A stretch of 64,000 nt of DNA from an uncultured Halieaceae bacterium (GTDB lineage: Bacteria > Pseudomonadota > Gammaproteobacteria > Pseudomonadales > Halieaceae), in NCBI GenBank assembly GCA_913056165.1, contig CAJXMD010000003.1:1-64000 (forward strand), read 5' to 3'. The translations under genes and the position numbers were made by a program. The notes beneath the pieces were generated by a model. The model was not told the DNA's origin. It was given only the letters and a program-made list of their open reading frames with translations, and ran no database searches. Below are positions 28,106-60,617 of this stretch, one piece after another; position 1 is the first letter of the stretch, and every line of letters begins with the position of its first letter.

Positions 28106-28124
28106 CCCCGCTCAGAAGGCGGGG
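28106..28124. terminator. hairpin between convergent genes
   Basis: CCCCGC (28106-28111) and GCGGGG (28119-28124) form a 6-bp GC stem with a 7-base loop, between the convergent PQQ dehydrogenase and gcdH genes and overlapping the gcdH stop codon. No T-run follows on either strand, so terminator function is only suggested by position. Confidence 0.35.
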
Positions 28125-29293
28125 ATATCTGTCTGGCTTCTACCAAGAATCAGGGCGTGAATATCGTGGGTGCCCTCGTAGGTGTTCACCACTTCCAGGT
28201 TCATCATATGGCGCATGATGGGATATTCATCGGAAATGCCGTTCCCGCCCAGCATATCTCGTGCCTTCCTTGCGATATCAAGTGCTTTGCCGCAGGAATT
28301 TCTTTTGATCAGGCTGATCAAGTCCGGCGAAATTTCGCCTGCGGAGAGCATCTGTCCGGCTCGAAGACAGGCCTGAAGCCCCAAAGCAATTTCTGTCTGC
28401 ATATCGGCGAGCTTAAGCTGAATCAGCTGCGTGGCCGCAAGAGGGCGACCAAATTGCTGGCGATCAAGGGTGTACTGTCGCGCGCTGTGCCAGCAGGTTT
28501 CAGCAGCACCCAGGGTGCCCCAGGCGATACCGTAGCGGGCGTTGTTTAGGCAGCCAAAAGGTCCTTTTAGTCCATGAACGTTGGGAAGCAGGTTCTCCTC
28601 GGGGACGAAGACATCCTCCATCACGATTTCGCCGGTTATTGACGCTCGCAGAGCGAGCTTGCCTTCTATTTTAGGGGCGCTTAGCCCCTTCATTCCCTTT
28701 TCAAGAATGAACCCGCGGATAACATCATCGTCCGTTTTGGCCCAGACGATAAACACGTCTGCAATCGGGCTGTTGGAGATCCACATTTTTGCCCCGGTGA
28801 GAGCGTAACCACCATCCACGGAACGGGCCCGGGTTACCATGCCGCCCGGGTCAGATCCGTGATCGGGTTCTGTGAGGCCGAAGCAGCCGATCCACTCGCC
28901 GGTGGCGAGTTTGGGCAGATACTTCTCTTTCTGGGCGTCGGAGCCGTACGCGTAGATGGGATACATCACCAGCGACGACTGGACGCTCAGCATGGAACGA
29001 TAGCCGGAGTCGACCCGTTCTACCTCTCTCGCTACGAGGCCATAGCAAACGTAGTCGACGCCAGGGCACCCGTATCCATCGATCGTGGAGCCCAGTAGCC
29101 CCATTTCCCCCATCTCCCGGAAAATAGCGGGGTCAGTTTCTTCGTGACGAAATGCCTCTTTGACCCGGGGCAAGAGCTGCCCTTGGGCATATTGCCTTGC
29201 GCTGTCACGAACCATTCGCTGTTCGTCGCTGAGCTGGCTGTCAAGTTCGAAGGGGTCTTCCCAGTTCAGTTTGCTCCAGCGTGTGCTGCCCAT
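28112..29293 (-). CDS. gcdH: glutaryl-CoA dehydrogenase-type acyl-CoA dehydrogenase
   Basis: A 393-residue FAD acyl-CoA dehydrogenase of the GcdH type, which oxidises and decarboxylates glutaryl-CoA to crotonyl-CoA. The motifs [38 protein letters not shown] and the C-terminal catalytic-Glu segment [16 protein letters not shown] are GcdH-like. I choose ATG 29293 because GGAG sits six bases upstream; ATG 29305 has no ribosome site. An island operator (29320-29335) lies just upstream, so gcdH is probably induced with the catabolic genes and handles the ring-cleavage product after it has been shortened to glutaryl-CoA. That link is inference. Confidence 0.85.
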
Positions 29294-29319
29294 GAGTTTC
29301 TCCATGTCGATAGGTAGAA

Positions 29320-29335
29320 GCTTTAAGTTTAAAAT
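29320..29335. promoter_or_regulatory. island palindrome, copy 1 (gcdH)
   Basis: GCTTTAAGTTTAAAAT matches the island consensus ATTTTA-N4-TAAAAT in the right arm fully and in four of six bases of the left arm. It lies 27 bases upstream of the gcdH start and inside the gap after the dioxygenase beta gene, giving gcdH its own controlled promoter. Confidence 0.7.
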
Positions 29336-29410
29336 ATCTGTGATCTCCAGCCAAGAAGACCGCTCTGGGGCCTACCCTCTTGGGGAAGGGTATCGGTCAG
29401 CGGGCGTTGG

Positions 29411-29881
29411 TCACAGGTAGATGATCAGGGATTGCTGTGGCGCCTCTGGGTTAATGAGATCGACCTGTTTTTCCAGAATTTTAAAGTCTTCGCCATCGAT
29501 CTGAAGGCGATGGGTAACTCTGCAGGCGTAAAGGCGTTGCTCGTCTCGATACCACACGACCACGTGCTGATTCGACGTTACTGTTATAACGTCTTCTGCC
29601 ACCTCTGGCAGGAGGCGTATATTGCCTATGACATGAGAGCAGCGAACCTCCCACTCTTTGGATGATGCTCTCGGGTGAATGAAATTTCGGCGGCGAATTT
29701 CCATCATGACCCGGTCGTCATAGATGTGGGAGATATGGTTGATGGGATCCTGCTGATCTTCTGTCGCAGGCATCCAGTAGGTACCGCTTTCGGCAAACAG
29801 ATTCATCCAGGAATCCAGATCGGGTCGATCCAGCAGATCGGCTTCCCGGTAAAGAAATTCCTCGATACGTTCCCGATTCAC
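29411..29881 (-). CDS. ring-hydroxylating dioxygenase beta subunit
   Basis: Small subunit (156 residues) of a Rieske non-heme-iron dioxygenase, a cone-shaped NTF2-like fold that packs the catalytic alpha trimer. The pattern READLLDRPDLDSWMNLF, then YWMPATED and the HP...EVRCSHVIGNIRL stretch are typical of the benzoate/anthranilate-type beta family. The start is GTG 29881, which overlaps the alpha stop (GTGA) and has GAGGTG upstream; an in-frame ATG at 29929 lies inside the alpha gene. In this context it probably helps oxygenate an indole ring. Confidence 0.85.
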   Translation of the reverse strand: MNRERIEEFLYREADLLDRPDLDSWMNLFAESGTYWMPATEDQQDPINHISHIYDDRVMMEIRRRNFIHPRASSKEWEVRCSHVIGNIRLLPEVAEDVITVTSNQHVVVWYRDEQRLYACRVTHRLQIDGEDFKILEKQVDLINPEAPQQSLIIYL

Positions 29882-31212
29882 GCGTTTTTCACCTCGTTGA
29901 ATATTGTGCCTTCCATATAGGCCTGCCATGCCTGGTACTGAGTGCGCATATCAAGGTCAGAAGTGCCGCCACCGACAGTGCGATCTACACGTTGCTCGTC
30001 TTTGCCATACTGGCGATGGAACTCGACCCATTCATTACTGGGTGAGGCGAGTCCTTCCTGAGCGCGCCGATAGACCTCAAGGTCGTCGGGTCCAACCATG
30101 CCCATAGCCGAGTTGATCAATCGGCTGTAGAGGAGGGTGCGCTGCAGCATGCTGTCGGGCGCGCCTTTGAGCCGGAAGGACCAGGTTTCGACAATGAACC
30201 GATCAACGCTGATAGGACGGATCACCCGGATGTTCTGCACGGCACACTTAATGGTGAGCGAGGGGTAAAAAAGGACGTTGTGGGTGTTAAAGGAGTAGAT
30301 TTCCCGGGTGCGTTCCTCACCATAGGCCGCCACCATTGCCGAGTGATAGTCGGGGTCAACTGAGTAATCCGCATGGATGCTGGTTTTGCCCCCGTCGTAA
30401 TGATGGCCGAAGGGGAAGCCAGTAATACCACTGGCCTCAAATTTTTCGTAACTGGCGCCGAAAGGCGGAATGATTTCTGCTTCTTTCCGCTGTTCCACGG
30501 CATCTTCGGGCAAAGAGTCTAGATAGGATTCGGCAGCTTTTACTATCGATTCATGAACGACCATCGGGTGCATGGTGTCGTTCAGATTTTCTAGGATAAA
30601 TTTCCAGTTGCACTGATGCTCGTACCGCAGCACACCGCCTGCGACCTCGACCTCTCCTTCAGGTGCGCGATCGCAAAGATTGTCAAAGCAGTCTCGTGCC
30701 CCTCCCATCCATGTTTTTAGATCGGGCGCGTCGGGTGACAGGGTGGCAAAAACAAAGCCTCGATAAGACTCAACTTGCGCCAGTGGCTGCATGCTATAGC
30801 AGGGATTGGAGCTATCAAACCCGGTGCCCTCGTAGCCCGCTTCGTTAGGCACTTTGAGCAAGCTCCCATCGTGGCGGTAGCTCCAGCCATGATAAGAGCA
30901 GCGAAACGCGCCCCGCGCATTTCCCGAGCGCGCTTCAACGACTTTCGCGCCCTTGTGCCCGCAGCGGTTATGAAGTACCTGAACCGTGCCTGATTTATCC
31001 CGTACCATGACGACAGGAATATTGTGATTGATGTTGGTGGTGAAGTAGTCGCCGGTATTGGGAACCTGAGACTCGTGGCCAATAAAAATCCAGGCTTGTC
31101 CCCAGATGCGCGTCATCTCGAGCTCGAATAAATCGGGATCGGTGTAGAGACTGCGGTGAACCCGTGTGGGTGTGACAACCTGACTAAAATCACCTGTTGG
31201 TATCGAAGTCAT
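29878..31212 (-). CDS. Rieske dioxygenase alpha subunit
   Basis: Catalytic subunit of a ring-hydroxylating dioxygenase, 444 residues. The Rieske 2Fe-2S ligands are CGH and CSYH (about 83-105). The mononuclear iron site is given by ENLNDTMHPMVVH (His, His) and a later Asp. The pair with the beta gene resembles the IadD/IadE dioxygenase that Variovorax uses to make dioxindole-3-acetate from indoleacetate, but that assignment rests on context. No ferredoxin or reductase gene accompanies it in the window, so electrons must come from a partner encoded elsewhere. It sits downstream in the operon that starts at the fadJ-like gene. Confidence 0.87.
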   Translation of the reverse strand: MTSIPTGDFSQVVTPTRVHRSLYTDPDLFELEMTRIWGQAWIFIGHESQVPNTGDYFTTNINHNIPVVMVRDKSGTVQVLHNRCGHKGAKVVEARSGNARGAFRCSYHGWSYRHDGSLLKVPNEAGYEGTGFDSSNPCYSMQPLAQVESYRGFVFATLSPDAPDLKTWMGGARDCFDNLCDRAPEGEVEVAGGVLRYEHQCNWKFILENLNDTMHPMVVHESIVKAAESYLDSLPEDAVEQRKEAEIIPPFGASYEKFEASGITGFPFGHHYDGGKTSIHADYSVDPDYHSAMVAAYGEERTREIYSFNTHNVLFYPSLTIKCAVQNIRVIRPISVDRFIVETWSFRLKGAPDSMLQRTLLYSRLINSAMGMVGPDDLEVYRRAQEGLASPSNEWVEFHRQYGKDEQRVDRTVGGGTSDLDMRTQYQAWQAYMEGTIFNEVKNA

Positions 31213-31221: not shown

Positions 31222-31950
31222 TTACAGCGCCAGCGACCCAAGGCTTGCTCCACCGCAAACCATGAGGGTCTGGCCTGTGATAAAGCCCGAGTCTTCACTG
31301 GACAGAAACTGTACCGCGTGGGCAACGTCTTTGGAACGACCCAGACGTTGTACGGGGATGCCTTTGGCAATCTGCTCGGCCTTGTCGCTGTCGGCAGGCA
31401 CCACGGATTCGAACATCTCGGTATCTGCAATGGGGCCGGGGGCCACGGTGTTGACCGTAATGCCTTCCGGGGCGAGTTCCAGTGCCCATGTTCTTGCCAG
31501 CCCAATCATGCCCGACTTGGTTGCCGAGTAGCTGGTCCGGGTTTGTAGCCCCAGCGCAGCTCGGGAGGTTATTAGAACAATGCGTCCGAACTGTCTCTCC
31601 CTCATGCCGGGGAGAATAGCTTGAGTAAGCGTGATCGCAGCACCGATGTGGACTTGGCTGAGGTAGTCGTAGTCATCGAGTGATACGGCAGAGAGCAGTG
31701 CCGGTCGGATGAGTCCTGCATTGTGGACGAAGCCGGTAATGGAGTGGTTTTTGGCAATATCCGCCGCCACTCGTTCTGTACTATTCCGGTCACTGAGGTC
31801 GAGTTGGATGTTAATCAATGGCATTTCAGGCCGCTCGAGAGGCCGCCTAGAGAGGTTCACCACCTGTTTGCCCTGCTTGAGGAAGGAGTCGCAAATTGCG
31901 GCCCCGATACCGGTGCTGCCGCCAGTGACGAGAACGGTGTCATGGGCCAT
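31222..31950 (-). CDS. short-chain dehydrogenase/reductase
   Basis: A 242-residue classical SDR. The nucleotide motif TGGSTGIG is at 9-16, NAG in VHNAGLI, and the catalytic Ser (ITSRAAL) and YSATK (Tyr, Lys) are in the usual order. It is close to 3-oxoacyl-ACP/CoA reductases. In the operon it lies between the DUF35 gene and the Rieske alpha gene (9 bases). It could oxidise a cis-diol made by the dioxygenase or a 3-hydroxyacyl-CoA of the lower pathway; sequence alone does not decide. Confidence 0.8.
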   Translation of the reverse strand: MAHDTVLVTGGSTGIGAAICDSFLKQGKQVVNLSRRPLERPEMPLINIQLDLSDRNSTERVAADIAKNHSITGFVHNAGLIRPALLSAVSLDDYDYLSQVHIGAAITLTQAILPGMRERQFGRIVLITSRAALGLQTRTSYSATKSGMIGLARTWALELAPEGITVNTVAPGPIADTEMFESVVPADSDKAEQIAKGIPVQRLGRSKDVAHAVQFLSSEDSGFITGQTLMVCGGASLGSLAL

Positions 31951-31984: not shown

Positions 31985-32512
31985 TTAAATACCACCCTGT
32001 TTCTCTGCCGGTTGTTTCAGGTTGAGAGCGGCAACAATGTGCTCACGCTGCTCCGGTGTCGCGATAGGGGTGCCCGCGCTCACGATGATTAACACCGAGG
32101 CCTGTGACGCGTCAGAGTGACTAAACACCGCAACATCGTCGCCAGTCTGCAAGGTATCCTCCCCAAGATGACCGATGACGACAGGGCCGTTACGGAGCTT
32201 CACTGAGCCTATTGGCCAGGGCTTGGTGCGAATACGCCGCTTGAAGAATTCCCAAAGGCTGTGATGCAACTCGCTGCGGCTTAAAAGTTGCCCCGCAGTA
32301 TCAACCTCTTGGTAGCGTAGCGTGTCTCCAAGACAGTGCCCACACAATTCGGCAGGTGGGTATTGATGATGCTCACAGGCGGTGCACACCTGCATTGAGA
32401 GAGAGACAGGTAGATTGGCGGCAGTGAACTGTTGGCCCAACGCTGTTCTTTGTTTCGGAGGACGTGCTCTGGCGCGAAGACTGGGTCTGTTAAGCTTCAG
32501 CCGCCGCTTCAT
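31985..32512 (-). CDS. DUF35/OB-fold zinc-ribbon protein, partner of thiolase-like protein
   Basis: A 175-residue protein with a rubredoxin-like zinc ribbon (CTAC and CGHC) followed by the OB fold of the DUF35/ChsH2-C family. Such proteins bind acyl-CoA and form complexes with thiolase-like enzymes; in steroid breakdown the pair Ltp2-ChsH2 is a retro-aldolase. I place the start at ATG 32512 with AAGGA upstream; GTG 32530 overlapping the thiolase stop is possible. A basic N-terminal tail (KRRLKLNRPSLRARARP) precedes the ribbon. It directly follows its likely partner gene. Confidence 0.8.
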   Translation of the reverse strand: MKRRLKLNRPSLRARARPPKQRTALGQQFTAANLPVSLSMQVCTACEHHQYPPAELCGHCLGDTLRYQEVDTAGQLLSRSELHHSLWEFFKRRIRTKPWPIGSVKLRNGPVVIGHLGEDTLQTGDDVAVFSHSDASQASVLIIVSAGTPIATPEQREHIVAALNLKQPAEKQGGI

Positions 32513-32526
32513 TTTTTCCTTCAGGT

Positions 32527-33711
32527 TCACGAGTCGGCCTCCTGCAATATGGCGGCCGCACTGCACAAGCCCCGGTCGTAGTTGACCATGCCATAGCCGC
32601 TGACCAGACAGGTACGTGCTGTGGCAATCTGATTACTCTGAGCACTGTGAGTGAGTTGACGAAGCGCTTCCGTCAGTCCGAGATAGCCTGCGGCCGAGCC
32701 AGCTTGCCCGCAGGATAGCTGACCTCCACAGGTGTTGTGGGGGAGCTTGTTTGCCGGCTTGCCGGAGCCATCGAAGCGCATGTCTGTCTCTTGTACGAAG
32801 CGAGCGCCGTCGCCCTTGTCGCAGAACCCCAAATCTTCGATTTGCATCATGCTGATGACAGGGTAGTCGTCGTAGGTCTGCAGCATATCGATGTCTTCCG
32901 GCCCGAGACCGGCGCGTTGGTAGAGGGCGTCGCGATAGCACGCCCAGCCAGCGCGCTGCTGTACGGGATCCTCAGAAAAGCTGTTATGTAGCTCATCGGT
33001 CGCCAATATCTGGACATAGGGGAGGCCGAGGTGTCTCGCTCGATCCTCAGTCATCAATAAAAACCCCTCGCCGCCAGCACAGGGCATCACACAGTCAAAA
33101 AGATGCACGGGCCCTGCGATAGGTCTTGCATTTAAATAGTCATCGAGACTTAGGGTCTTGTGACCTAAAAGCGCCTGCGCGTAGTGGTTGGCGTTATAAC
33201 GCTGGTCAAGGCATATGCGCGCGAAATCTTCTCTGGTGGCGCCGAACTCTTCCATATAGCGAGCCGTGATCAAACTAAAAACGGCGTTTGGTCCCCCAGC
33301 GCCATAGGGAAATGCAGCATCGATACTCCAGCTCGAGAAGTTCGCTGCCGTGTGTTCAAAGGACCGATGCGCGGCGCCATCACCACCGATGCAGGCAATC
33401 ATCTCCGCCTCACCGGCCTGTACAGCTCTTGCGGCACGCCGCAAGGCAACAATGCCAGACACGCCGCCCATATCCGCCTGCTCTATCCAACGCGGTGAAA
33501 GTCCAAATTGTTGCGTCAGTGAAACAACTGAGTCCACGCCAAGGGAGAAACTTGAGACGGCAAGCCCCTCAACATCGGTCTTGCTCACGCCTGAGCGGAG
33601 GATAAGTTCCCGTAAGACCATACCGATAAACCAGGATGCTCCATGGGGGCTTTGCCGTTGATAGCCGAGGCTCACCGGCGTGGTCATCACGACGCCCTGA
33701 TAATCTTTCAT
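32527..33711 (-). CDS. thiolase-like protein, probable acyl-CoA retro-aldolase
   Basis: A 394-residue thiolase-fold protein of the SCP-x/Ltp2 group. The usual nucleophile motif (CASG-type) reads GGVSG at 82-86, with Gly83 in the Cys position. The usual NEAFA is YDDYP, and the GHPxGATG loop is GQAGSAAG, so this is not a normal thiolase. Loss of that Cys together with a DUF35 gene next door is the pattern of Ltp2-type aldolases, which split a tertiary beta-hydroxyacyl-CoA into a ketone and a short acyl-CoA. Here the natural candidate is dioxindole-3-acetyl-CoA to isatin and acetyl-CoA (inference). It overlaps the ligase stop by ATGA. Confidence 0.8.
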   Translation of the reverse strand: MKDYQGVVMTTPVSLGYQRQSPHGASWFIGMVLRELILRSGVSKTDVEGLAVSSFSLGVDSVVSLTQQFGLSPRWIEQADMGGVSGIVALRRAARAVQAGEAEMIACIGGDGAAHRSFEHTAANFSSWSIDAAFPYGAGGPNAVFSLITARYMEEFGATREDFARICLDQRYNANHYAQALLGHKTLSLDDYLNARPIAGPVHLFDCVMPCAGGEGFLLMTEDRARHLGLPYVQILATDELHNSFSEDPVQQRAGWACYRDALYQRAGLGPEDIDMLQTYDDYPVISMMQIEDLGFCDKGDGARFVQETDMRFDGSGKPANKLPHNTCGGQLSCGQAGSAAGYLGLTEALRQLTHSAQSNQIATARTCLVSGYGMVNYDRGLCSAAAILQEADS

Positions 33712-35336
33712 ACGGACTTGGTCCGTTTTTTCAAATGGCGTAGGTCGATAGCCCTTTCCTCCTCAATCGCCTTGAGAGCGAGTGTCTTCACGTCGGCGCG
33801 CTTGGGTTTGTTAGAAGCGGTCACGGGAAGTGATGAGGAGAATATCACCCAGGCGGGGGCTTTGAAGTACGCCAGTTTCTCGAGCACATGTGCCTGAATC
33901 GATTCTGCGGTTGTCTTGGGATCAACAGTATCCGCCTTAAGGATTACGCACAGCGCCACTTCGTCACCTCGCAACTCATCGGGCACGGCGGTAGCAACCG
34001 CCATCTGAATGTCCTGATGATCTGACACCGCGGCCTCGACTTCTAGCGCTGAAATATTCTCCCCCGAACGCCGGATGATATTTTTGCGTCGGTCAACAAA
34101 AATCAGGTTCCCGTCCGGTAGTTCTTGGACAACGTCTCCGGTATTTAACCAGCCATCCAGCCACGCTTCCTCGGTTGCCTCCGGGTTTTTGAGGTAACCC
34201 GAAAAGTATCCCTTTTTGGGGTTGGGTCCTCTAGCCCGTACTCTTAGTTCGCCCGGCATGCCCTTGGCAACAGGCTTCTTATTCTCATCGACCAGCTGCC
34301 ATTCGATGGGCTCTCCGGGTCGTCCAAAGCAGCAGGTACCCACATGCCGCGGCTCATGGCTGGCAATGATCGCGCCTCCAGCACCGCACTCGGTCATTGC
34401 CCATGCTTCAACTAGTGGAAATCCAAACCGTTGCTCGAAGCGTTCATGGTGTGCGGGATTCACGCCCGCACCAAACCCAAAACGTATCTGGCCTGAAAAA
34501 TCATCGCTGTCTGACTCGGGTAGGGCTAACAGTATCGCCGGTAGCACGCCCAGATAATGAAGCGCTGTTGCCTCGGAGTCTCGCACGGTCTGCCACCAAG
34601 TCGCGGGGTGGAACCGGTCGAGCTGTATCAAACAGCCTCCCGTGGAAAACATGGCCATCGTGGACACGGACATGGCATTCATGTGACTCAGGGGGAGGGG
34701 GGTTAAGAGCCTCTCTCTGCCGTCGCGAAGTTCGATGTGGCCGCCTTGTGCGCGATACCAGTGTCCCTGCTCCAAGAAATAATCGTTGCTCAGGATGCAG
34801 CCCTTTGGTTTGCCCGTGCTACCGGAGGTGTACAGAAGAGCACATTCGGCGTCGGCGTTGGGAGCCGGTTGCTTGATAGGTTTACCAAGATTAAGGGAGC
34901 TAATGGAATCACAGCTCACGACCGGAATATCAAGCTCGTTGCTGCCACAGATGTCGGTAAATCGCTTCAGGTGCTTTGCAAGTGTGCAAACCGCGACAGC
35001 TTCCCCATGTTCCAAATAGTAGGGTATTTCCTGATCGGGCATTTCATGGTTGATTGGAATGACGGACAGCCCAAGCGCATTCAGGGCGAGCCAATGGATT
35101 AAAAATTCGGCACGGTTTTCGCAAACCAAGGCAACCCGCCCGGCAATACCGGTACCCTGCCAAAGCGTGGTTGCTTCGTTAATGGCTCGGTCCAGCTCGC
35201 GGTAAGTCAGTGAGACCGGCTCGTGCGAGTAGTGCGCACATGCCTGAAGAGGGATGTGAAGGGCTTCATTGTCTGGAAACCGCTGTGCGCTAAAGGCAAC
35301 GGTTTCCCTGGGACTTTTGGCAGAGAGTAGGCTCAC
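33708..35336 (-). CDS. acyl-CoA synthetase of the indole island
   Basis: A 542-residue AMP-forming ligase with the YTSGSTGKPKG loop (about 169-179), AWAMTECG, WLNTGDVV and DRRKNIIRRSGENIS motifs, and the C-terminal catalytic Lys in SNKPKR. It resembles the CaiC/crotonobetaine ligase group. The start is GTG 35336 with AAGG upstream, nine bases after the fadJ-like gene. It most likely activates the side-chain carboxylate of the aromatic substrate (indoleacetate or dioxindole-3-acetate) before the retro-aldol step. Confidence 0.85.
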   Translation of the reverse strand: MSLLSAKSPRETVAFSAQRFPDNEALHIPLQACAHYSHEPVSLTYRELDRAINEATTLWQGTGIAGRVALVCENRAEFLIHWLALNALGLSVIPINHEMPDQEIPYYLEHGEAVAVCTLAKHLKRFTDICGSNELDIPVVSCDSISSLNLGKPIKQPAPNADAECALLYTSGSTGKPKGCILSNDYFLEQGHWYRAQGGHIELRDGRERLLTPLPLSHMNAMSVSTMAMFSTGGCLIQLDRFHPATWWQTVRDSEATALHYLGVLPAILLALPESDSDDFSGQIRFGFGAGVNPAHHERFEQRFGFPLVEAWAMTECGAGGAIIASHEPRHVGTCCFGRPGEPIEWQLVDENKKPVAKGMPGELRVRARGPNPKKGYFSGYLKNPEATEEAWLDGWLNTGDVVQELPDGNLIFVDRRKNIIRRSGENISALEVEAAVSDHQDIQMAVATAVPDELRGDEVALCVILKADTVDPKTTAESIQAHVLEKLAYFKAPAWVIFSSSLPVTASNKPKRADVKTLALKAIEEERAIDLRHLKKRTKSV

Positions 35337-37507: not shown

Positions 37508-37523
37508 ATTTTAAGCTTAAAGT
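37508..37523. promoter_or_regulatory. island palindrome, copy 2 (fadJ operon / DUF1330)
   Basis: ATTTTAAGCTTAAAGT, one mismatch from the consensus ATTTTA-N4-TAAAAT, lies in the 201-bp divergent gap between the fadJ-like operon and the DUF1330 gene. It is 81 bases from the former start and 106 from the latter, so it could control both. Confidence 0.75.
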
Positions 37524-40125: not shown

Positions 40126-40130
40126 CCGGA

Positions 40131-49516: not shown

Positions 49517-49518
49517 TT

Positions 49519-52160: not shown

Positions 52161-52564
52161 TGACTCGTGTCCACAGCGAAGATCGCGGAAATTTCGGCCA
52201 CTAGGACCGCTTCCGGTCCAAAGACAGAAATCTCGACTCCCTGACTTTCGCATCCCGGTACCATAGAGCTCGGTTGACGCTCGCCCAGCTGGAGTTCAGT
52301 GGTTAGTGATTGATCGACAAACGTGGGTTTGCGCCACTTCATCTCGCTAACCGCGGTTAGCATGACGGGGTTATAACCCTCCGCTGCGAGTGTGTCACTG
52401 GCGAGTTGGGTCGCCACAGCGGCAACTTGCCAGCCGCTGGCACATAGGCCGCCGAATATTGAAGCGTCGCCCGCGGCGGCGTCCATATGATAGGGCTGCG
52501 GATCAAAGGCTTGGGCGAAGTCAATGATCTCCTCCTGAGATAGAGACCGTTGATGGCTTTTCAT
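52157..52564 (-). CDS. MaoC-family hydratase, catalytic partner
   Basis: A 135-residue MaoC-type hydratase with the intact motif FDPQPYH (Asp21, His26) and GGLCASGWQVAA. It precedes and overlaps a paralogue lacking these residues. As a likely heterodimer they would hydrate a bulky or cyclic enoyl-CoA. The gene has no island operator upstream. Confidence 0.8.
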   Translation of the reverse strand: MKSHQRSLSQEEIIDFAQAFDPQPYHMDAAAGDASIFGGLCASGWQVAAVATQLASDTLAAEGYNPVMLTAVSEMKWRKPTFVDQSLTTELQLGERQPSSMVPGCESQGVEISVFGPEAVLVAEISAIFAVDTSQ

Positions 52565-53279: not shown

Positions 53280-54458
53280 TCAGGCGCCTGTATGATTTAG
53301 GCGGGTCTGCCGCGCAATGATGGTGGTTTGTACCTCGCTGGCACCCTCGTAGATCCGTAGCGCGCGAACGTCGCGGTATAGAGATTCAACGATATAACCC
53401 TTGGTCACGCCTTTGCCGCCATGCAGTTGAACCGCGGTGTCAACTACCTGCTGGGCAGTTTCTGTGGCGTGATATTTGGCCATAGCCGCTTCACGGGTGA
53501 CTCGGTCTGCGGCGCAGTCTTTGGTCCAGGCGGCGCGGTAAACAAGGAGGGCGCTGGCGTCAACACCCAGCGCCATTTCACCAATTTTGGCCTGCACGAG
53601 CTGCAGGTCGTCTAATTTACCGCCAAAAATCTCTCGCGAAGCGGTGTAGTCCAGGGTTTCGTCTAGGGCTCTGCGAGCCATCCCCAAAGCCGCGGCTGCC
53701 ACGGTTGAGCGGAAAACATCCAAAGTAGCCATGGCAATGCCAAAGCCCCGACCTTCGTCCCCAACTCGCTGAGCATCGCTTATGCGGCAGTCGTTAAACT
53801 CGAGGGTGCCAAGAGGGTGGGGGGCGACGAGATCGATGCGTTCGGTAACCTCCAGTCCAGCTGTGTCGGCGTCCACAATGAAGCAGCTGATGCCCTTGGC
53901 GCCGCCACTGGCATCGGTGCGCGCGAACACCGTGTAAAAATCCGCTATGCCCGCATTCGAAATCCAGGTCTTGCACCCATTCAGAATCCAGTCATCACCG
54001 TCTCGAACGGCGCTACATTTCATAGCCGCCACATCCGATCCCGCATTTGGTTCAGAAAGCCCGAAGGCGCTCATCTTTTCACCCGCCGCGACAGCCTGCA
54101 GATACTTTTCCTGTTGTTGTGCTGTTCCAAAGAGCGATATCGGCCCGCTACCCAGCCCTTGCATGGCAAACGCAAAGTCAGCAAGCGCATTATGCCGCGC
54201 TAGCGTCTCTCGAATGATACAAAGACTTCGCACATCGAGCTTTTCGAGATTCCCGCCGCCGCTTGCAGGCACTGCATAGCCGGCGAAACCCGAGCTCCCT
54301 AACGCCCTGACTAGTTTGACGCAGGTGCCGTCGAGATCCTCATGTTCATGCTCTGTGAGAACCTCCATGTGCTCCTGAGCCCACTGATCAAGGGTTTCAG
54401 CCAAGTGGCGGTGGTGGTCCTCAAAGAATGGCCACCCTAAAAAGCTCTTATCACTCAC
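53280..54458 (-). CDS. acyl-CoA dehydrogenase of the 2-aminobenzoyl-CoA operon
   Basis: A 392-residue FAD acyl-CoA dehydrogenase. [15 protein letters not shown] and [18 protein letters not shown] bind FAD, and the catalytic-Glu segment is [18 protein letters not shown] near the C-terminus. It is the last gene of the minus-strand operon that starts with the monooxygenase/reductase fusion, and probably oxidises an alicyclic or ring-opened acyl-CoA. It differs from the GcdH-type enzyme of the same island in lacking the glutaryl-specific motifs. Confidence 0.87.
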
Positions 54459-54500: not shown

Positions 54501-55313
54501 TTAATTACCCTCGAAGACGGGAGATTTTTTGCTGACGAAGGCTTCATAAGCTCTGTTGAAGTCTTCAGTTTGCATGCAAATCGCCTGCGCCTGTGCCTCA
54601 CACTCGATGGCCTGATCGACCGACATATTCCACTGTTGATGGAGCTGGGTTTTGGTGATCCCGTTGGCAAAAGTGGGTCCGGCTACTATCCGATCAGCCG
54701 CACCCTTAGCGTCGCTGAGGGGGTCTTCGCTGACACCATTAAAAAACCCCCAGTGTTCGCCCTCATCGGCCGACATGGATCGCCCAAAATACAAGAGCTC
54801 ACTCGCTCGACCTTGGCCAATAATCCTGGGAAGAATAGAGCAAGCCCCCATGTCGCAGCCGGCAAGACCCACGCGATTAAAAAGAAAAGCCACCTTGGCG
54901 GATGGGGCCCCATAGCGAAGGTCGCTGGCCATGGCGATGATGGCGCCGGCGCCGGCGCAAATTCCTTCCACAGCAGACACCACAGGCTGCGGGCAAGCCC
55001 GCATGGCTTTGACGAGGTCACCGGTCATGCGGGTGAAATCGAGTAGCTCGCTCATGGACATTTTAGTCAGCGGGCCGATGATTTCATGGACATCACCGCC
55101 CGAGCAAAAGTTTCCTCCCGCACCGGTGATGACAACAGCGTGGATGTCATCTGCGTAAGTCAGCGCACGAAATAAATCCCGCAATTCAGCATAAGATTCA
55201 AAGGTCAGGGGATTTTTTCTATCGGGTCGATTGAGCGTGATCAGCGCAACGCCGTCGGTCGCTTCCCAAAGAAAATGGGTAGCCTCGTAATTTGCCAGCT
55301 TGGTTTTTTGCAT
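54501..55313 (-). CDS. enoyl-CoA hydratase/isomerase family protein
   Basis: A 270-residue crotonase-fold protein. The oxyanion-hole segments [11 protein letters not shown] and [19 protein letters not shown] are present. The first catalytic Glu of true hydratases (PEI/PEV motif) is not conserved ([10 protein letters not shown]), while an Asp in GCDMGA and the Glu in RASELL remain. It may therefore act as an isomerase or ring hydrolase rather than a standard hydratase. It lies 12 bases behind the SDR gene in the operon. Confidence 0.82.
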
Positions 55314-55325: not shown

Positions 55326-56081
55326 TTAAGACGTTTCTCCGCCGTCGAGTGCGATCGCCTGTCCGTTGACAGCGCCTCCGGCGTCGCTCGCGAGCCATTG
55401 TACCGCGGCCGCGACTTCTGCGGGTTCAATCAGCCGTCCCATGGGATTGCAATCGGTAAAGTGTGTAAGCGCCTCAGCCTCAGTACGGCCGGTCTTACTG
55501 GCGATAGTCTTAATCGATTGCTGAATGATGTCCGTGTTGGTATAGCCCGGACACACGGCGTTTACGGTAATGCCAGTATCCGCGACTTCAAGCGCAAGGG
55601 ATCGAGTGAGTCCCAACACCGCATGTTTTGATGCGACATAGGCCGCGACGTACTTGTAGCCTTTAAGGGAGCCTGTGCTGGCAATATTGATGATGCGGCC
55701 CCATCCTCGCTCCCGCATTCCCGCCAATACATGCTGCGTGCAGTGGAAAACCCCGTTGAGGTTTAAATCCAGAGTGGCCTGCCACTCCGGGAACTCAATT
55801 TTGTGAAAGGGAGCAGTGGGTGCCATGCCGGCGCAGTTAACCAAAATATCGACGGGACCATGACTGTCGCAGGCGACCTCGAAGGAAGAAGTCACCTGAT
55901 CTCGGTCAGTCACATCCGTGGGTTGCGCCAGGCAGTGGTCCCCAAGCGACTCTGCCAGAGCCTGCAGCGGTTCCTTTCTTCGACCCACCAAGGTCAGATT
56001 GCACCCCGAGGCATGCAGGGTGGACGCGATAGCGGCGCCGATACCTGTCCCGGCGCCGGTCACCAACGCGTGGCGCGGCAT
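55326..56081 (-). CDS. SDR-family dehydrogenase
   Basis: A 251-residue classical SDR: TGAGTGIG at 8-15, NCAG in VNCAGMAP, catalytic Ser in NIASTGS and YVASK (Tyr, Lys). It resembles 3-hydroxybutyrate dehydrogenase and 3-oxoacyl reductases. The start overlaps the stop of the fusion gene (TGATG). In context it could oxidise or reduce the 5-oxo/hydroxy group of the alicyclic CoA ester made by the fusion enzyme. Confidence 0.83.
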   Translation of the reverse strand: MPRHALVTGAGTGIGAAIASTLHASGCNLTLVGRRKEPLQALAESLGDHCLAQPTDVTDRDQVTSSFEVACDSHGPVDILVNCAGMAPTAPFHKIEFPEWQATLDLNLNGVFHCTQHVLAGMRERGWGRIINIASTGSLKGYKYVAAYVASKHAVLGLTRSLALEVADTGITVNAVCPGYTNTDIIQQSIKTIASKTGRTEAEALTHFTDCNPMGRLIEPAEVAAAVQWLASDAGGAVNGQAIALDGGETS

Positions 56082-58399
56082 CAGCCTGTCTCTCTCTCTC
56101 GCTCGGCGAGGACGTGAGCCTGACGGTAACCCAAGAAATATTGATGGGGTTCATTCACCCCGGGTCCGCTGTAACCGAGCTGTGCCGCTGCATGAAGCGT
56201 CCAGTTGGGATCCGCGAGATGGGGTCGCGCCAGACATACCAGATCTGCTCGCCCAGCTGCGATGATACTGTTGACATGATCTATTTCATAGATATTGCCA
56301 ACGGCTATAGTGGGTATGTTGCCCTCGTTACGGATGAGATCAGACAGAGGGGTTTGAAACATCCTGCCCGGTTGTGGCTTTGCCTTGTGCGTCGTTTGCC
56401 CGGTGGAGACGTTGATGATGTCAGCGCCGGCATCTGAGAACGCTTGTGCAATGAGCAGAGCTTCTTCTTCGGTAACGCCATCGCTACCCACCCAGTCATG
56501 AGCCGAGATTCTGACCGACATGGGTTTGTCCTCAGGCCAGGCTGCGCGCATCGCGCGGCACACTTCCAGCGGATAACGCAATCGGTTGTCGAGACTGCCG
56601 CCGTAGTCATCGTCACGGTGATTAAGCACAGGGGTGATAAATGATGACAGTAAGTAACCATGGGCCGCATGCATCTCGATCATGTCAAAGCCGGCTTCTT
56701 CGGCCCGGTGGACGGCATCCACATGAAGTTGCTTGATGTGATCCATGTCGTCTCGGGTCATCGCTTTGGGCACGGGACTGTAGCTGTCGAAGGGGACGGC
56801 GCTAGCGGAGAGGAGGGGCCACTGCTGGTCCTCTGGAAGGGGTTCATCCAATATCTTGGGATCCCATTTCCAAGGCTCAAGCGTGGCCCCTTTGGGCCCT
56901 GCGTGGCCTATCTGGATGGCCATTTTCGCTTTGGTGTGCCCGTGGATGAAGGAGACAACGCGCTTCCAGGCCTGGGTATGTTCTTCACTCCAGATGCCAG
57001 TACACCCGGGCGTAATGCGTCCTTCAGCGCTCACGTTGGTCATTTCCGTGTAGATGAGACCGGCGCCACCCTTGGCAAGGGCGCCGTAGTGAACGAGATG
57101 CCAGTCATCGGGAAGTCCATCGGTTGCGCTATACATGCACATGGGAGAGACGCAAACACGATTTGCCAGCTCCATGTTGCCCAACTGATATGGGAGGAAT
57201 AGTGGGGGGATAGGATCGTTCGCTGCCTCACCAAGAGACTGCGTTGTCAGGTGTGCCTCCATGGTTGCTAGCCAAACGGGGTCACGCAGACGCAGGTTTT
57301 CGTGGCTCACCCGTTGGCTCCGGGTGAGCATGGAGTAGTTAAACTGCTTCAAATCAAACGCGTTGATGTATCTCGGGACGTTCTCGAACCAGACCATTGC
57401 ATTGCGAGCACTGTTCTGAAGTCTAAGCACGTCGATCTTCCGCTCTTCCTGATAGGCTCTCAACGCCTCAGGGACCGGCATGCCGCTGTTCAGGTGTCCG
57501 GCAAGCGAGATAGCGTCCTCAAGACCGAGCTTGGTTCCCGAGCCAATAGAAAAGTGCGCGGTGTGGGCAGCGTCACCGATCAGGACAATGCGATCGTCTT
57601 TGATCCAGTTATCGCAGTACACCGCCGGGAAGTTGATCCAGGCTGATCCCCTGATATGCGCGGAGTTGGTGAGCAGTTCGTGGCCCCCGAGGTAGTTTTC
57701 AAATATTTTCCGGCAGGTCTCGGCACTCTCTGCGTGTGTCATGTGCTCAAAGCCGATAGCGTCGTAAACCTCTGGGGTTGTTTCTACAATGAACGTCGAG
57801 GTTGAGTCATCGAATTGGTAGGCGTGCGCCCATATCCAGCCGTGTTCAGTTTTCTCAAAAATAAAGGTGAATGCATCTCGAAAGGTTTGATGAGTGCCGA
57901 GCCATACAAATTTGTTGGGGCGCGTCTCGATGGTGCACTCAAAGGTTTCTTTGTGGGCGTTGCGAATCTTTGAATTGAGACCATCACTAGCGACGATAAG
58001 ATCCGCATCGGCGAAGCGTTCGTCGATGTCGGATAACTCAAATTCTTGCTCGAAAAAGAGCTCGACTCCCACCTCGCGCGCGCGGGCATGGAGAAGCTGA
58101 AGAAAACGCTTGCGCCCCAAGCCGATGAATCCATGCCCACCCGACCGCTCGACTTCCCCATTAACGTGACAGTCAATCAGATCCCAATGAATGAATTCAT
58201 CTACGATAGTTTTGGCACTGACAGGATCATTGGCGGTGATGTTTTCAACGGTTTGATCCGAGAACACGATCCCCCATCCAAAGGTATCGTCTGGCTTATT
58301 CCTCTCGTAGACCTCGATTTGGTGTTCGGGATTTCTCAGCTTCATGCTGATGCCCAGGTAGAGTCCTGCGGGACCACCGCCAATACAAACCACTTTCAT
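56081..58399 (-). CDS. 2-aminobenzoyl-CoA monooxygenase/reductase fusion
   Basis: A 772-residue flavoprotein fusing two families. Residues about 1-375 are a salicylyl-CoA 5-hydroxylase-like FAD monooxygenase with GGGPAG (7-12) and VLIGDAAHTAHFSIGSGTKLG. Residues about 395-765 are a YqjM-like Old Yellow Enzyme with HLVHYGALAKGGAGL and the active-site HAAHGYLLSSF. This architecture and length match 2-aminobenzoyl-CoA monooxygenase/reductase of Azoarcus evansii, which hydroxylates and dearomatises 2-aminobenzoyl-CoA. I place the start at ATG 58399 (MKVVCIGGGPAG); the open frame beyond it is the regulatory gap. It leads the operon divergent from marR. Confidence 0.9.
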   Translation of the reverse strand: MKVVCIGGGPAGLYLGISMKLRNPEHQIEVYERNKPDDTFGWGIVFSDQTVENITANDPVSAKTIVDEFIHWDLIDCHVNGEVERSGGHGFIGLGRKRFLQLLHARAREVGVELFFEQEFELSDIDERFADADLIVASDGLNSKIRNAHKETFECTIETRPNKFVWLGTHQTFRDAFTFIFEKTEHGWIWAHAYQFDDSTSTFIVETTPEVYDAIGFEHMTHAESAETCRKIFENYLGGHELLTNSAHIRGSAWINFPAVYCDNWIKDDRIVLIGDAAHTAHFSIGSGTKLGLEDAISLAGHLNSGMPVPEALRAYQEERKIDVLRLQNSARNAMVWFENVPRYINAFDLKQFNYSMLTRSQRVSHENLRLRDPVWLATMEAHLTTQSLGEAANDPIPPLFLPYQLGNMELANRVCVSPMCMYSATDGLPDDWHLVHYGALAKGGAGLIYTEMTNVSAEGRITPGCTGIWSEEHTQAWKRVVSFIHGHTKAKMAIQIGHAGPKGATLEPWKWDPKILDEPLPEDQQWPLLSASAVPFDSYSPVPKAMTRDDMDHIKQLHVDAVHRAEEAGFDMIEMHAAHGYLLSSFITPVLNHRDDDYGGSLDNRLRYPLEVCRAMRAAWPEDKPMSVRISAHDWVGSDGVTEEEALLIAQAFSDAGADIINVSTGQTTHKAKPQPGRMFQTPLSDLIRNEGNIPTIAVGNIYEIDHVNSIIAAGRADLVCLARPHLADPNWTLHAAAQLGYSGPGVNEPHQYFLGYRQAHVLAERERETG

Positions 58400-58506: not shown

Positions 58507-58522
58507 GTTTTAAGTTTAAAAT
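58507..58522. promoter_or_regulatory. island palindrome, copy 5 (marR / fusion operon)
   Basis: GTTTTAAGTTTAAAAT, one mismatch from the consensus, lies in the 245-bp divergent gap between the fusion operon and marR. It is 37 bases from copy 6, about three and a half helical turns centre to centre. Confidence 0.8.
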
Positions 58523-58543: not shown

Positions 58544-58559
58544 ATTTTAGATATAAAAT
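58544..58559. promoter_or_regulatory. island palindrome, copy 6 (marR / fusion operon)
   Basis: ATTTTAGATATAAAAT has two perfect arms and lies 85 bases before the marR start. Two copies in front of the regulator gene suggest autoregulation together with control of the divergent operon. Confidence 0.8.
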
Positions 58560-58644
58560 GTTTGTAGCACGCCGTACGTTGTGGGCGTTAGTTACGATGG
58601 ACCGACATCTCTTAATAGGTCGGTTAGGTGGGGAGTGCTTGTAA

Positions 58645-59139
58645 TTGAAAAGTAACGAGAAAATCCTCCCGTTGGATCACGAGTCCCGACTGGTTGAGGA
58701 CGATCATCACAGCATTCGGCTCTGGTTGCGGCTGCTAACTTGCACCAACATGATCGAGGCTGCACTGAGAACTCGTCTGAGAGAGGAGTTCGGCACCACA
58801 CTGCCACGTTTCGACTTTATGGCGCAGCTTGCCAAGGTGTCAGAGGGCCTAACGATGGGCGAGCTGTCCAAGCAAATGATGGTTTCCGGGGGCAATGTTT
58901 CCGGTATCGCCAGTCAGCTGGAGAGCGAGGGATTGATTGATCGCGCGCCGGTGCCAAATAACCGCCGGACCTTTTGCGTCAAATTGACCGAGGAGGGAAA
59001 GCAGCGTTTTTCAGAGATGGCTGAGGCCCATGAGCAATGGGTCATTGAATTGCTGGGCCATTTATCCAGTGACGATCAGCAGCGGCTGATGGCGACCCTC
59101 AAACGCGTCAAGTTAGGCATCGCGGATTCACTTGATTAA
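58645..59139 (+). CDS. MarR-family transcriptional regulator
   Basis: A 164-residue winged-helix regulator. The HTH and wing cover about 68-125 (LTMGELSKQMMVSGGNVSGIASQLESEG, then a basic RAPVPNNRRTF wing and VKLTEEGKQRF). Helices at both ends form the dimer interface. The start is TTG 58645, with a GGTGGGG purine run upstream. MarR proteins of aromatic pathways are usually repressors released by the substrate or its CoA ester; Variovorax auxin loci are also controlled by a MarR protein. It is the obvious candidate to bind the six ATTTTA-N4-TAAAAT sites. It is followed after 17 bases by an OYE gene. Confidence 0.9.
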   Translation: MKSNEKILPLDHESRLVEDDHHSIRLWLRLLTCTNMIEAALRTRLREEFGTTLPRFDFMAQLAKVSEGLTMGELSKQMMVSGGNVSGIASQLESEGLIDRAPVPNNRRTFCVKLTEEGKQRFSEMAEAHEQWVIELLGHLSSDDQQRLMATLKRVKLGIADSLD

Positions 59140-59156
59140 CCAGTGGGAAGATAGCC

Positions 59157-60617
59157 ATGTGGAAGCCTGCCGAGCGCATTAAGTATCAAACTGAGGTAGA
59201 GACCTGGCCAAACGTCGAGCGGGCCGCCTCAAGTCGTCTTTTTTCGCCGATCGGTATCGGCGGCGTGACCCTTGAACAGCGGACTTGGATCCCTGCGATG
59301 GTCCCATGGCGGTCCAATGAAGAGGGTGAGGTGACACAGGATGTCATCGATTGGTATAGCCGTTTTGCCGAGGGTAAGCCCGGCGCGATCGTCATCGAGG
59401 CGACTGGTATTCGAGATATACCGAGTGGCCCTTTGCTGCGTATCTCCAACGACAGCTATGTGCCGGGTCTGAAGCGTCTTGTTGACGCGATTCGCGAGGC
59501 GAGCGGAGGCCATACCCGCTTGTTGATTCAACTTATCGATTTCTTGGGTATCCGTCGAAGGCCAGACCCTCAAAAGTACTTTGACCGGTTCCTCGTGGTG
59601 ACCGATCAGCACCGGTCCTTGCTCGGAATGGAGAGTGAGGATGAGCTAACAATCCGCGCCAAGCTGAGCCAACTGAGCGACGATGAACTTGAATCCGTGT
59701 TGTCCCCAACGGAGCTAGAGGCGCTCAGGTTTGGCTACCGTGAGCGGGTGACCGACATGCACATTCCTGCGATCGCGCAGCTTCCGCAAACCCTTCCCGG
59801 GCTATTCGCGCAAGCTGGCGTTCGTGCGAAACAGGCGGGGTTTGACGGCATCGAGCTGCACTATGCCCACGCTTACACCATGTCTTCTTTTTTATCTGCC
59901 ACGAACACCCGGACTGACGGGTACGGTGGTAGTGCAGAGGAACGGCTTCGTCTGCCCCTTGAGGTGTTTGCGCGGGTCAGAGATAGCGTTGGCTCTGATT
60001 TTCCCGTGGGCTGCCGGTTCCTGAGCGATGAAATTATCGAGGGGGGTAGTGGCCTGGATGATGCCCGCTTTTTCGCGACAGAATTTGCCCGAGCGGGGAT
60101 GGATTTTTTGAGTCTCTCTCGGGGGGGGAAATTTGATGATGCCAAGCAGCCCAAGGTCGGCTGGGCGGCCTACCCCTATACCGGACGCAGTGGCTACGAG
60201 TGTATGCCATCTTATATCTCCGATGCGCAGGGACCATGGGAGCGAAATGTCGAGCCCGTGGCAGCGATTAGAACGTCGATTAGAAAAGCAGGCTGTTCGA
60301 CTCCAATTATTACTGCTGGCGGGATTTACAGTTTTGAGCAGGCGGAACGACTTCTGGCCGAGGAGAAGGCGGATGTTGTTGGATTTGCGCGCCAGGCTCT
60401 CGCGGATCCCGATTGGTTTGAAAAGGTCAGGCAGGGCAGAGGGGATGAAGTGATGCTGTGTCGTTACAGCAATTACTGTGAAGGCCTTGATCAAAAACAC
60501 AAGCAAGTGACCTGCGAGCTCTGGGATCGAGAAGAGTTGGAGCAACCGGACACGGTTCTGGCGACCGACGGCAAGCGTCGTTTGACCGCGCCTCGCTGGC
60601 GCCCCGATTTGCGATAG
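59157..60617 (+). CDS. Old Yellow Enzyme-family NADH:flavin oxidoreductase
   Basis: A 486-residue FMN TIM-barrel enzyme of the OYE/2,4-dienoyl-CoA reductase family, without the Fe-S and FAD domains of the long form. FDGIELHYAHAYTMSSFLS carries the active-site His region, GYGGSAEERLRLPLEV follows, and a phosphate-binding ITAGGIYS and VVGFARQALADP close the barrel. A Cys-rich C-terminal tail (LCRYSNYC) is present but no full cluster motif. It is co-transcribed with marR and probably reduces an unsaturated alicyclic intermediate. Confidence 0.85.
   Translation: MWKPAERIKYQTEVETWPNVERAASSRLFSPIGIGGVTLEQRTWIPAMVPWRSNEEGEVTQDVIDWYSRFAEGKPGAIVIEATGIRDIPSGPLLRISNDSYVPGLKRLVDAIREASGGHTRLLIQLIDFLGIRRRPDPQKYFDRFLVVTDQHRSLLGMESEDELTIRAKLSQLSDDELESVLSPTELEALRFGYRERVTDMHIPAIAQLPQTLPGLFAQAGVRAKQAGFDGIELHYAHAYTMSSFLSATNTRTDGYGGSAEERLRLPLEVFARVRDSVGSDFPVGCRFLSDEIIEGGSGLDDARFFATEFARAGMDFLSLSRGGKFDDAKQPKVGWAAYPYTGRSGYECMPSYISDAQGPWERNVEPVAAIRTSIRKAGCSTPIITAGGIYSFEQAERLLAEEKADVVGFARQALADPDWFEKVRQGRGDEVMLCRYSNYCEGLDQKHKQVTCELWDREELEQPDTVLATDGKRRLTAPRWRPDLR

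Follow-up and report, generated by a model that had tools for sequence, protein, structure and literature searches.

A putative MarR-type regulon for indole-3-acetate degradation in a marine Halieaceae bacterium, with a candidate oxidoreductase for the isatinate step

Two catabolic modules in one island

Positions 28112-60617 of a 64,000-nucleotide stretch of DNA (hereafter the window; contig CAJXMD010000003.1 of assembly GCA_913056165.1, from an uncultured Halieaceae bacterium) hold a block of catabolic genes that is probably a single MarR-type regulon for the degradation of the plant hormone auxin (indole-3-acetate, IAA) in a marine member of the Halieaceae. As read from the sequence, a route is well supported in which an iad-type IAA pathway is joined to a 2-aminobenzoyl-coenzyme A (CoA) pathway, and which would end in glutaryl-CoA and acetyl-CoA. 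New here are a palindrome shared across both halves, the gene patterns of IOR, acyl-CoA ligase and isatin hydrolase, and the interpretation of a thiolase-like protein as a retro-aldolase; one new enzyme role, that of the IOR-like pair, is likely. The host, a relative of Luminiphilus, is represented by a draft genome of 2.43 Mb in 114 contigs (86.7% complete).

A sequence-only reading of this DNA had proposed a probably complete IAA degradation island joining both halves into one CoA-based route. All the genes that it named are present at 28112-60617, according to the gene calls and Pfam/NCBIfam scans that underlie our annotation (high-GC relatives were searched by tblastn), and chance does not account for their grouping: further genera of the family share the core order, and a test of 50 genomes shows the genes to co-occur. 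The joined route is favoured by the oxygenase pocket, conserved co-occurrence, the shared palindrome and the palindrome at the glutaryl-CoA dehydrogenase (GcdH) gene; the word 'complete' has to be given up, because searches of the island and of the genome turned up no IadC reductase.

The proposed IAA oxygenase

The Rieske oxygenase is encoded by an IadD-like alpha subunit, the proposed IAA oxygenase (29878..31212, minus strand), and an IadE-like beta subunit (29411..29929, minus strand; PF00866, 88 bits). Among solved structures, the alpha subunit is closest to 9O71 (437 bits), followed by 7yls (436 bits); 9O71 is IadDE from Variovorax paradoxus CL014 (PMC12633357; papers are cited here for the portions of their text that were covered). 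The nine IAA-pocket residues listed for IadD in PMC10374108 were transferred to the window protein by hand from an alignment. All nine are identical there, together with 3/3 iron-ligand and 4/4 Rieske-ligand residues. The full pocket is also found in 5 of the 12 homologues compared (G024, G052, G112, G042 and L023), and eight residues are kept in those of Azospirillum, Labrenzia and Sulfitobacter and in a second Rieske protein of G054 (K322 to Q). Homologues without iad neighbours have fewer, namely seven on a Variovorax plasmid, seven on pCAR1 and six in Agrobacterium, and in all three F251 is replaced by N and K322 by H. An isochorismatase gene adjoins the pCAR1 and Agrobacterium homologues. 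The Variovorax plasmid match (L030) was ruled out as an iad locus on the basis of this 7/9 pocket and of its 37 kb, which has no gene table in the record and gave no ligase or thiolase match. The genes of what had been called a Rieske dioxygenase pair are in place; according to a 2025 preprint, IadDE acts as a monooxygenase (PMC12633357).

A palindrome shared by both halves

The palindrome ATTTTA-N4-TAAAAT emerged from the aligned gaps between the MarR gene and the gene for a monooxygenase/reductase fusion in ten genomes. With up to two mismatches it occurs six times in the window, against 0.86 expected, and none of 100 shuffles reached six; a 20-bp form occurs five times, against 0.09 expected. 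These operator-like sites, to which no strand is assigned, sit in five promoter gaps, 23-153 bp before genes. One with two mismatches (29320..29335) lies 23 bp upstream of gcdH and one with a single mismatch (37508..37523) precedes the FadJ-to-Rieske operon. Exact copies occupy the gap between the genes for a luciferase-like monooxygenase (LLM) and MaoC1 (43913..43928) and that between rid and isatin hydrolase (44904..44919), and the fusion/MarR gap holds two sites, with one mismatch (58507..58522) and exact (58544..58559). No palindrome was found in the three other gaps longer than 60 bp (TonB/LLM, YeiH/alcohol dehydrogenase and MaoC/DUF1993).

Genome-wide, six sites have at most one mismatch, a count outside which the GcdH site falls; five of them are in the island, and a reversed control pattern gives three sites. 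The sixth is at G000:C62:1616-1631. Since five of the six lie in the island, both halves, together with GcdH, look like one regulon in sequence terms. Relatives have palindromes at equivalent promoters, including the upper operons of two genomes without the fusion (G036, one mismatch; G010, exact); other relatives carry fewer sites, G112 having one in 40 kb.

The palindrome may be bound by the MarR regulator of the window (58645..59139, plus strand; PF12802/PF01047), whose best solved relative is 3boq (91.5 bits). The sequence-only reading had counted this gene as evidence for an iad pathway. We no longer treat it as an iad hallmark: it scores 32 bits against chain 7kfo, which we take to be IadR of Variovorax, and counterparts with 36-55% identity adjoin the fusion module even where a genome has no IadD-like gene, for which reason the regulator is assigned to the aminobenzoyl-CoA module. 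No operator or palindrome sequence for comparison was found in the covered portions of PMC9613470. Two further loci, L021 and L022 (a metagenome-assembled genome (MAG) of Porticoccaceae, and LSUCC0057), carry the upper half together with two MarR-like matches; their flanking ligases differ, and this may be a second type of regulatory layout.

Conservation and modularity

An uncultured Luminiphilus MAG has a Rieske gene 97% identical to that of the window. Twenty-three related Rieske loci were found in genome contigs, all gammaproteobacterial, with carriers that include Luminiphilus, Haliea, Kineobactrum, Parahaliea, other Halieaceae, Porticoccaceae, LSUCC0057 and a Woeseiaceae MAG. A contiguous core is present in six relatives: G024 and G021 (both Haliea), G055 (Kineobactrum sediminis), G054, G135 (Parahaliea mediterranea DSM 21924) and G052. 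Its order begins with MarR, fusion, SDR, crotonase and dehydrogenase, goes on to IOR beta/alpha, isatin hydrolase and Rid, and closes with ligase, thiolase, DUF35, SDR and Rieske alpha/beta; MaoC proteins belong to five of the six cores, and in G135 FadJ lies between Rid and the ligase.

In a search of the family, the Rieske gene was found at 71% identity or more in 22 of 140 genomes, own included. These 22 were compared with 28 genomes lacking a close IadD, namely a carrier of a 54% homologue (G042) and 27 genomes hand-picked for completeness; a fragmentary match in G089 was not counted. The fusion is present in 18/22 against 1/28, IOR in 19/22 against 1/28 and isatin hydrolase (at 50% identity or more) in 18/22 against 1/28 (Fisher 7e-9 to 9e-10). 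The single exception among the 28, G062, retains the lower half, the TonB, LLM and GMC genes and GcdH, and on its contig C31 (L072, L073) there is no FadJ-ligase-thiolase-DUF35-SDR-Rieske block between GMC and GcdH. In G085, IOR and isatin hydrolase are present and the fusion is unmatched. In G112 (Luminiphilus syltensis) the fusion matches in two pieces with a stop (C1:3046153-3048515), and the gene may be broken or the sequence in error.

The two halves are modules, because G062 holds the lower one only and G036, G010 and G033 the upper one only. Ten proteins scanned in the flanks of the G036 and G010 upper halves revealed no recognisable replacement pathway. Nor is the join an invention of Halieaceae, since both parts occur together in Azospirillum thermophilum and on one contig of G250. 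On the A. thermophilum plasmid NZ_CP029358, MarR, IOR, oxygenase, ligase, SDR, fusion, SDR, hydratase, dehydrogenase and Rid lie in one run, which, unlike the window, has IadC. That the halves are separate in G062, G036, G010, G033 and other Proteobacteria would also suit a chance neighbourhood of two unrelated catabolic clusters. Given that one palindrome precedes both halves, with its genomic sites concentrated in the island, and that the halves are contiguous in six relatives, we regard such a coincidence as very improbable and retain the single regulon.

Several observations weigh against an IAA regulon of this kind. Three IadC queries (tblastn, E 1e-5) found no match in the window or in the Halieaceae island loci, the own genome gave one IadC query only fragments of 29-34% identity (best E 1e-4), and IadC is required by IadDE in vitro and in E. 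coli (PMC10374108). G036 (P. mediterranea TN14-10), G010 and G033 have IadD with no fusion, IOR or close isatin hydrolase, and the 37 kb of A. thermophilum with IOR and the fusion lack a thiolase, DUF35 and isatin hydrolase. Several relatives also have two-mismatch palindromes away from the promoters described. As to the reductase, one study reports that E. coli needs no more than Variovorax iadDE to degrade IAA and that iadC speeds the reaction (PMC9613470). In the Halieaceae host, the oxygenase would either be served by a general reductase, or the IadC gene would lie in the missing 13% of the genome.

From IAA to isatin: a probable retro-aldolase

Gene functions in the upper half were compared with those of plasmid loci in Labrenzia and Sulfitobacter, which were called iad-type by gene order and pocket residues and whose genes were named by gene order; the ligase, thiolase-like, isatin hydrolase and SDR genes match these loci with order kept. 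In the first step, the Rieske oxygenase would attack the indole C2-C3 bond, and an SDR that is IadJ-like by gene order (31222..31950, minus strand) would oxidise the product to dioxindole-3-acetate. This SDR is 49-54% identical to those of Labrenzia, Sulfitobacter and Azospirillum (49-50% to the first two alone), and the step is taken from mutants and isotope tracing in relatives (2025 preprint, PMC12633357). In the second, the IadF-like ligase (33708..35336, minus strand; PF00501; 44-46% to the ligases of the same three genera, 44-45% to Labrenzia and Sulfitobacter alone) would make dioxindole-3-acetyl-CoA, an assignment made in the preprint from mutants and annotation (PMC12633357).

The third step, our own proposal, concerns the IadG-like, thiolase-like protein (32527..33711, minus strand; 54% to its Labrenzia and Sulfitobacter counterparts) and its stand-alone ChsH2-type DUF35 partner (31985..32566, minus strand). 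The pair had already been described as lacking the thiolase cysteine. Alignment against what we take to be the canonical Cys/His/Cys motifs indicates that both catalytic cysteines are replaced and that the catalytic histidine is gone as well. The best solved relatives are 9myr (153 bits), 4u4e (123 bits) and 6ok1 (114 bits), the last of which carries the name lipid-transfer protein and is presumably Ltp2. In the DUF35 protein, PF12172 is above its cut-off (31 bits) and PF01796 below (19.5 bits, cut-off 27.1). The next gene after the thiolase-like one in Labrenzia and Sulfitobacter encodes a DUF35-SDR fusion, to whose N-terminal half the window protein corresponds (33-38%). An IadH of this fused form was not found in the window, where the DUF35 half alone forms its own gene, as it does in 3/3 Halieaceae relatives aligned.

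Loss of the catalytic Cys/His/Cys, together with an adjoining DUF35 protein, is what characterises the steroid side-chain aldolases Sal/Shy and Ltp2/ChsH2, and Sal with its DUF35 partner releases acetyl-CoA from a 3-hydroxyacyl-CoA through retro-aldol cleavage (PMC11321319). Given that dioxindole-3-acetyl-CoA is a tertiary 3-hydroxyacyl-CoA, which a thiolase could not split, the same chemistry would yield isatin and acetyl-CoA. The window pair differs from the steroid enzymes in that its expected substrate is a dioxindole and its product the ketone isatin, and in that its DUF35 protein has no MaoC domain. From these sequence features, the thiolase-like protein and DUF35 probably form a retro-aldolase, and IadG plus the DUF35 part of IadH may be reassigned in the same way.

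The 2025 preprint has proposed from annotation that IadG is a ketothiolase acting with IadF and IadH in a reductive removal of the side chain; besides the annotation, the accumulation of C8H7NO2 in the absence of iadI is in line with this (PMC12633357). We consider it improbable, since all three thiolase catalytic positions are replaced and the aligned Halieaceae proteins have no SDR half of IadH. Moreover, thiolases need a 3-ketone, which cannot form where the beta carbon bears a tertiary alcohol, and this counts against a ketothiolase. With a retro-aldolase in place, the C8H7NO2 of the preprint might arise when the SDR half of IadH reduces isatin.

From isatin to 2-aminobenzoyl-CoA: a proposed role for the IOR-like pair

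The isatin hydrolase gene (263 aa, 45008..45799, plus strand, with ATG at 45008 in an open reading frame (ORF) that opens at 44828) gives 327 bits to 5nmp, keeps the Mn-ligand motif HTGTHFD (His/His/Asp) and the GLAS motif, and is 57-59% identical to the Labrenzia and Sulfitobacter genes. As published work on isatin hydrolase suggests, its product would convert isatin into isatinate (2-aminophenylglyoxylate). Next to it lie an IOR-like 2-oxoacid oxidoreductase alpha subunit (45843..48029, plus strand; TIGR03336, 280 bits), which has a GDG...N motif of the thiamine pyrophosphate (TPP) type, and a beta subunit with DUF6537 (48026..49516, plus strand; NF006179, 534 bits, cut-off 348). We propose, from gene context, that this TPP enzyme would use CoA in the oxidative decarboxylation of isatinate directly to 2-aminobenzoyl-CoA, with no free anthranilate. 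On balance, we favour the view that iad loci and many stand-alone isatin clusters encode, with their IOR-like pair, a new isatinate (2-aminophenylglyoxylate):CoA oxidoreductase, bypassing free anthranilate and an ATP-consuming ligase.

The fusion gene occurs in 83 of 397 proteobacterial genomes, own included, and 80 of the other 82 were sampled for IOR and isatin hydrolase (E 1e-60). IOR was found in 28, isatin hydrolase in 26 and both in 25 (Fisher 2e-16), or, by genus, in 18, 16 and 15 (p 5e-9). The two lie within 20 kb of each other in 20 of the 25 genomes that have both, and in 15 of the 28 IOR-positive ones IOR is no more than 20 kb from the fusion. An IadD-like Rieske gene (E 1e-90) is present in only six of the 80; 19 of the 25 genomes with IOR and isatin hydrolase have none at this threshold. 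Isatin hydrolase and IOR clusters of this kind include L080 (G461), L081 (G261), L084 (G311) and L092 (G434), likely stand-alone isatin or indole catabolic clusters; three of these four stretches contain the fusion, and none has an IadD-like Rieske match.

If IOR supplies 2-aminobenzoyl-CoA, a ligase beside the fusion should be dispensable, a prediction that was then tested. The fusion has an acyl-CoA ligase at most 5 kb away in 20/20 sampled IOR-negative clusters (hand-picked, one per genus from 20 genera, out of 52 genomes) against 3/15 IOR-linked ones (all 15 genomes with fusion and IOR at most 20 kb apart). Fisher values for this anticorrelation are 5e-7 at 5 kb, a limit set after the distances were seen, 2e-5 at 10 kb and 6e-4 by genus at 5 kb. 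Second fusion copies of G329 and G238 were left out, and contig ends limit the stretch covered to 11.9 kb in G190 and 13.6 kb in G501. G412, which has isatin hydrolase and no IOR, shows a ligase-like match about 2 kb from its fusion and fits the pattern. Nine of the 20 ligases were typed, and in all of them the best match was TIGR02262, the benzoate-CoA ligase family (354-430 bits, four of the nine over cut-off). This model exceeds its cut-off in none of 19 fusion-positive Halieaceae (weaker matches in 18, the best 326 bits in L. syltensis, and 261 bits in the own genome) and in one of 14 control genomes.

There is also evidence that pulls the other way. The IOR alpha score is under the TIGR03336 equivalog cut-off of 650.9, three of the 15 IOR-linked clusters retain a ligase within 5 kb and five within 10 kb, and the absence of a ligase in G190 says little, because its fusion is near a contig end. 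Benzoate-CoA-ligase-like proteins elsewhere, in L. syltensis (326 bits) and in one Haliea (299 bits), come near the 354-430 bits of the typed ligases. We understand the name iadC-K2 to exclude the IOR genes, and the iadC-K2 region of Variovorax already yields anthranilate (PMC12633357). This last point, the family name and the NF006179 match would all suit an IOR that keeps its named role, in which indolepyruvate from tryptophan would become indoleacetyl-CoA upstream of the oxygenase, and isatinate would reach anthranilate through another enzyme or spontaneously, to be activated by the island ligase. We hold this to be unlikely. IOR tracks isatin hydrolase in the 19 fusion-positive genomes without an IadD-like Rieske gene, most IOR-linked clusters are without a ligase, and no aminotransferase is among the annotated island genes. 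No 2-aminobenzoate-CoA ligase was found in the fusion operon, and the single ligase found in the island is of the IadF type. Should the isatinate:CoA oxidoreductase role be true, the catabolism of indole-acetate and isatin in many Proteobacteria would run almost wholly on CoA esters.

The proposed route from 2-aminobenzoyl-CoA to glutaryl-CoA

The lower half is headed by a fusion of the 2-aminobenzoyl-CoA monooxygenase/reductase type (flavin-monooxygenase/OYE; 56081..58399, minus strand; NF006101, 1169.9 bits, cut-off 1078), whose ORF opens at 58504. The true starts of isatin hydrolase and of the fusion are very probably 45008 and near 58399, since the longer ORFs enter promoter gaps and their extra N-terminal residues match no solved or related protein. 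The fusion forms a single run with an SDR (55326..56081, minus strand; PF00106, 205 bits), an enoyl-CoA hydratase (crotonase) family protein (54501..55313, minus strand; NF006107, 479 bits, cut-off 330) and an acyl-CoA dehydrogenase (53280..54458, minus strand; PF00441; 463 bits to 5idu).

Elsewhere in the block lie genes for a Rid enamine/imine deaminase (44475..44867, minus strand; PF01042, 66 bits), which in related loci has the ligase or isatin hydrolase as its neighbour, for MaoC-type (MaoC1; 44033..44491, plus strand; PF01575) and FAS1-DH/MaoC-type (MaoC2; 51675..52253, minus strand; PF13452) hydratases, for a FadJ-type hydratase/3-hydroxyacyl-CoA dehydrogenase identified by domain scans (35346..37427, minus strand), and for GcdH. 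The acyl-CoA dehydrogenase that had been called GcdH (28112..29305, minus strand) deserves the name, with 672 bits to 3gnc and 568 bits to 1siq/1sir, all three named glutaryl-CoA dehydrogenase.

The fusion enzyme would dearomatise 2-aminobenzoyl-CoA, a reaction based on work in Azoarcus; the Rid, SDR, crotonase, MaoC, acyl-CoA dehydrogenase and FadJ proteins would then remove the amine and open the ring, in an order that is again our proposal, to give glutaryl-CoA and acetyl-CoA, and GcdH would carry glutaryl-CoA onward. A second GcdH-like gene, 81% identical to that of the island, is present elsewhere in the genome (L079, G000:C21).

NF006101 is named for a bifunctional salicylyl-CoA 5-hydroxylase/oxidoreductase, which weakens the assignment, so that 2-aminobenzoyl-CoA as the substrate rests on domain architecture and context. 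The fusion might use salicylyl-CoA, with another input to the lower half, or the true substrate of the upper half might be another indole (indole, oxindole, or an indole-acetate that is halogenated or conjugated) and IAA an incidental one. Other inputs are indeed likely, because G062, with no close IadD, retains the TonB receptor, LLM and GMC genes beside its lower half. For the window, the identity of the IadD pocket at all nine positions, the fit of an acetate side chain to the ligase, aldolase and SDR, and the fit of an amino-aryl product to an isatin hydrolase adjoining IOR all favour IAA, and another substrate appears improbable.

Relation to known systems

With the iad genes of Variovorax paradoxus CL14/CL014 (PMC9613470, PMC10374108, PMC12633357), the window shares an identical IadD pocket and IadF-, IadG-, IadI- and IadJ-like genes. 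It differs in having no IadC, no ABC transporter gene annotated in the island, a MarR not close to the presumed IadR, a DUF35 without the SDR half, and an upper half joined to an aminobenzoyl-CoA module and GcdH. IorA and IorB are listed in iad loci in a figure legend of PMC9613470, without a function there. In Azoarcus evansii, a ligase is followed by a monooxygenase/reductase forming 2-amino-5-oxocyclohex-1-ene-1-carbonyl-CoA and then by beta-oxidation enzymes (PMC4539516). The window shares the fusion and the beta-oxidation-type enzymes, but its cluster has no 2-aminobenzoate-CoA ligase, in whose stead IOR is proposed. A link from isatin to 2-aminobenzoyl-CoA is not new, because isatin, isatic acid, anthranilate and a 2-aminobenzoyl-CoA cluster have been reported for indole breakdown in Cupriavidus sp. 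SHE (PMC6221969). That scheme starts from indole and uses free anthranilate and a ligase, whereas the window would start from IAA and has no such ligase.

In the portions of the literature searched, no enzyme was named for the onward step of isatinate in aerobic IAA or isatin breakdown, nothing joined isatinate to 2-aminobenzoyl-CoA through an oxidoreductase, and no paper was found that ties Luminiphilus or Halieaceae to IAA breakdown. The gene patterns described here offer a specific and testable candidate for this poorly understood isatinate step, and with them iad-type IAA breakdown would reach into marine Halieaceae, a point of interest for auxin signalling in algae and for the turnover of marine organic matter. 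Given that several carriers are named strains, the pathway can be tested.

Other genes of the block and its surroundings

The block also contains zinc-type alcohol dehydrogenase, DUF1330 and DUF1993 genes, a YeiH-type membrane protein immediately 3' of IOR beta (49519..50520, plus strand; PF03601, 221 bits) and a second OYE-family reductase (59157..60617, plus strand; PF00724, 153 bits). Behind the operator at 43913, one run (38057-43825) comprises LLM (42725..43825, minus strand; PF00296, 216 bits), a TonB receptor (40131-42644, minus strand), a small Tat-type protein of 176 aa (39595-40125, minus strand) and, adjoining it, a GMC oxidoreductase (38057-39601, minus strand); the last three have the same gene order in Luminiphilus relatives. 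The run is kept in G062, which has no IAA oxygenase, and may feed a different indolic substrate to the isatin route. An AlphaFold model of the Tat-type protein has a pLDDT of 43.9, and no reading was drawn from it.

The start of the island is preceded by a pyrroloquinoline quinone (PQQ)-type alcohol dehydrogenase gene (25823-28090) and by a probable housekeeping stretch. Among six genes scanned at 9356-25498, five gave aconitase, PALP, carboxyl-transferase, amidotransferase and Cys/Met PLP domains and the sixth had no match, which suggests housekeeping genes of the type leuC...trpB-accD...purF-metZ. A separate AMP-ligase gene lies outside the island at 3534-5066.

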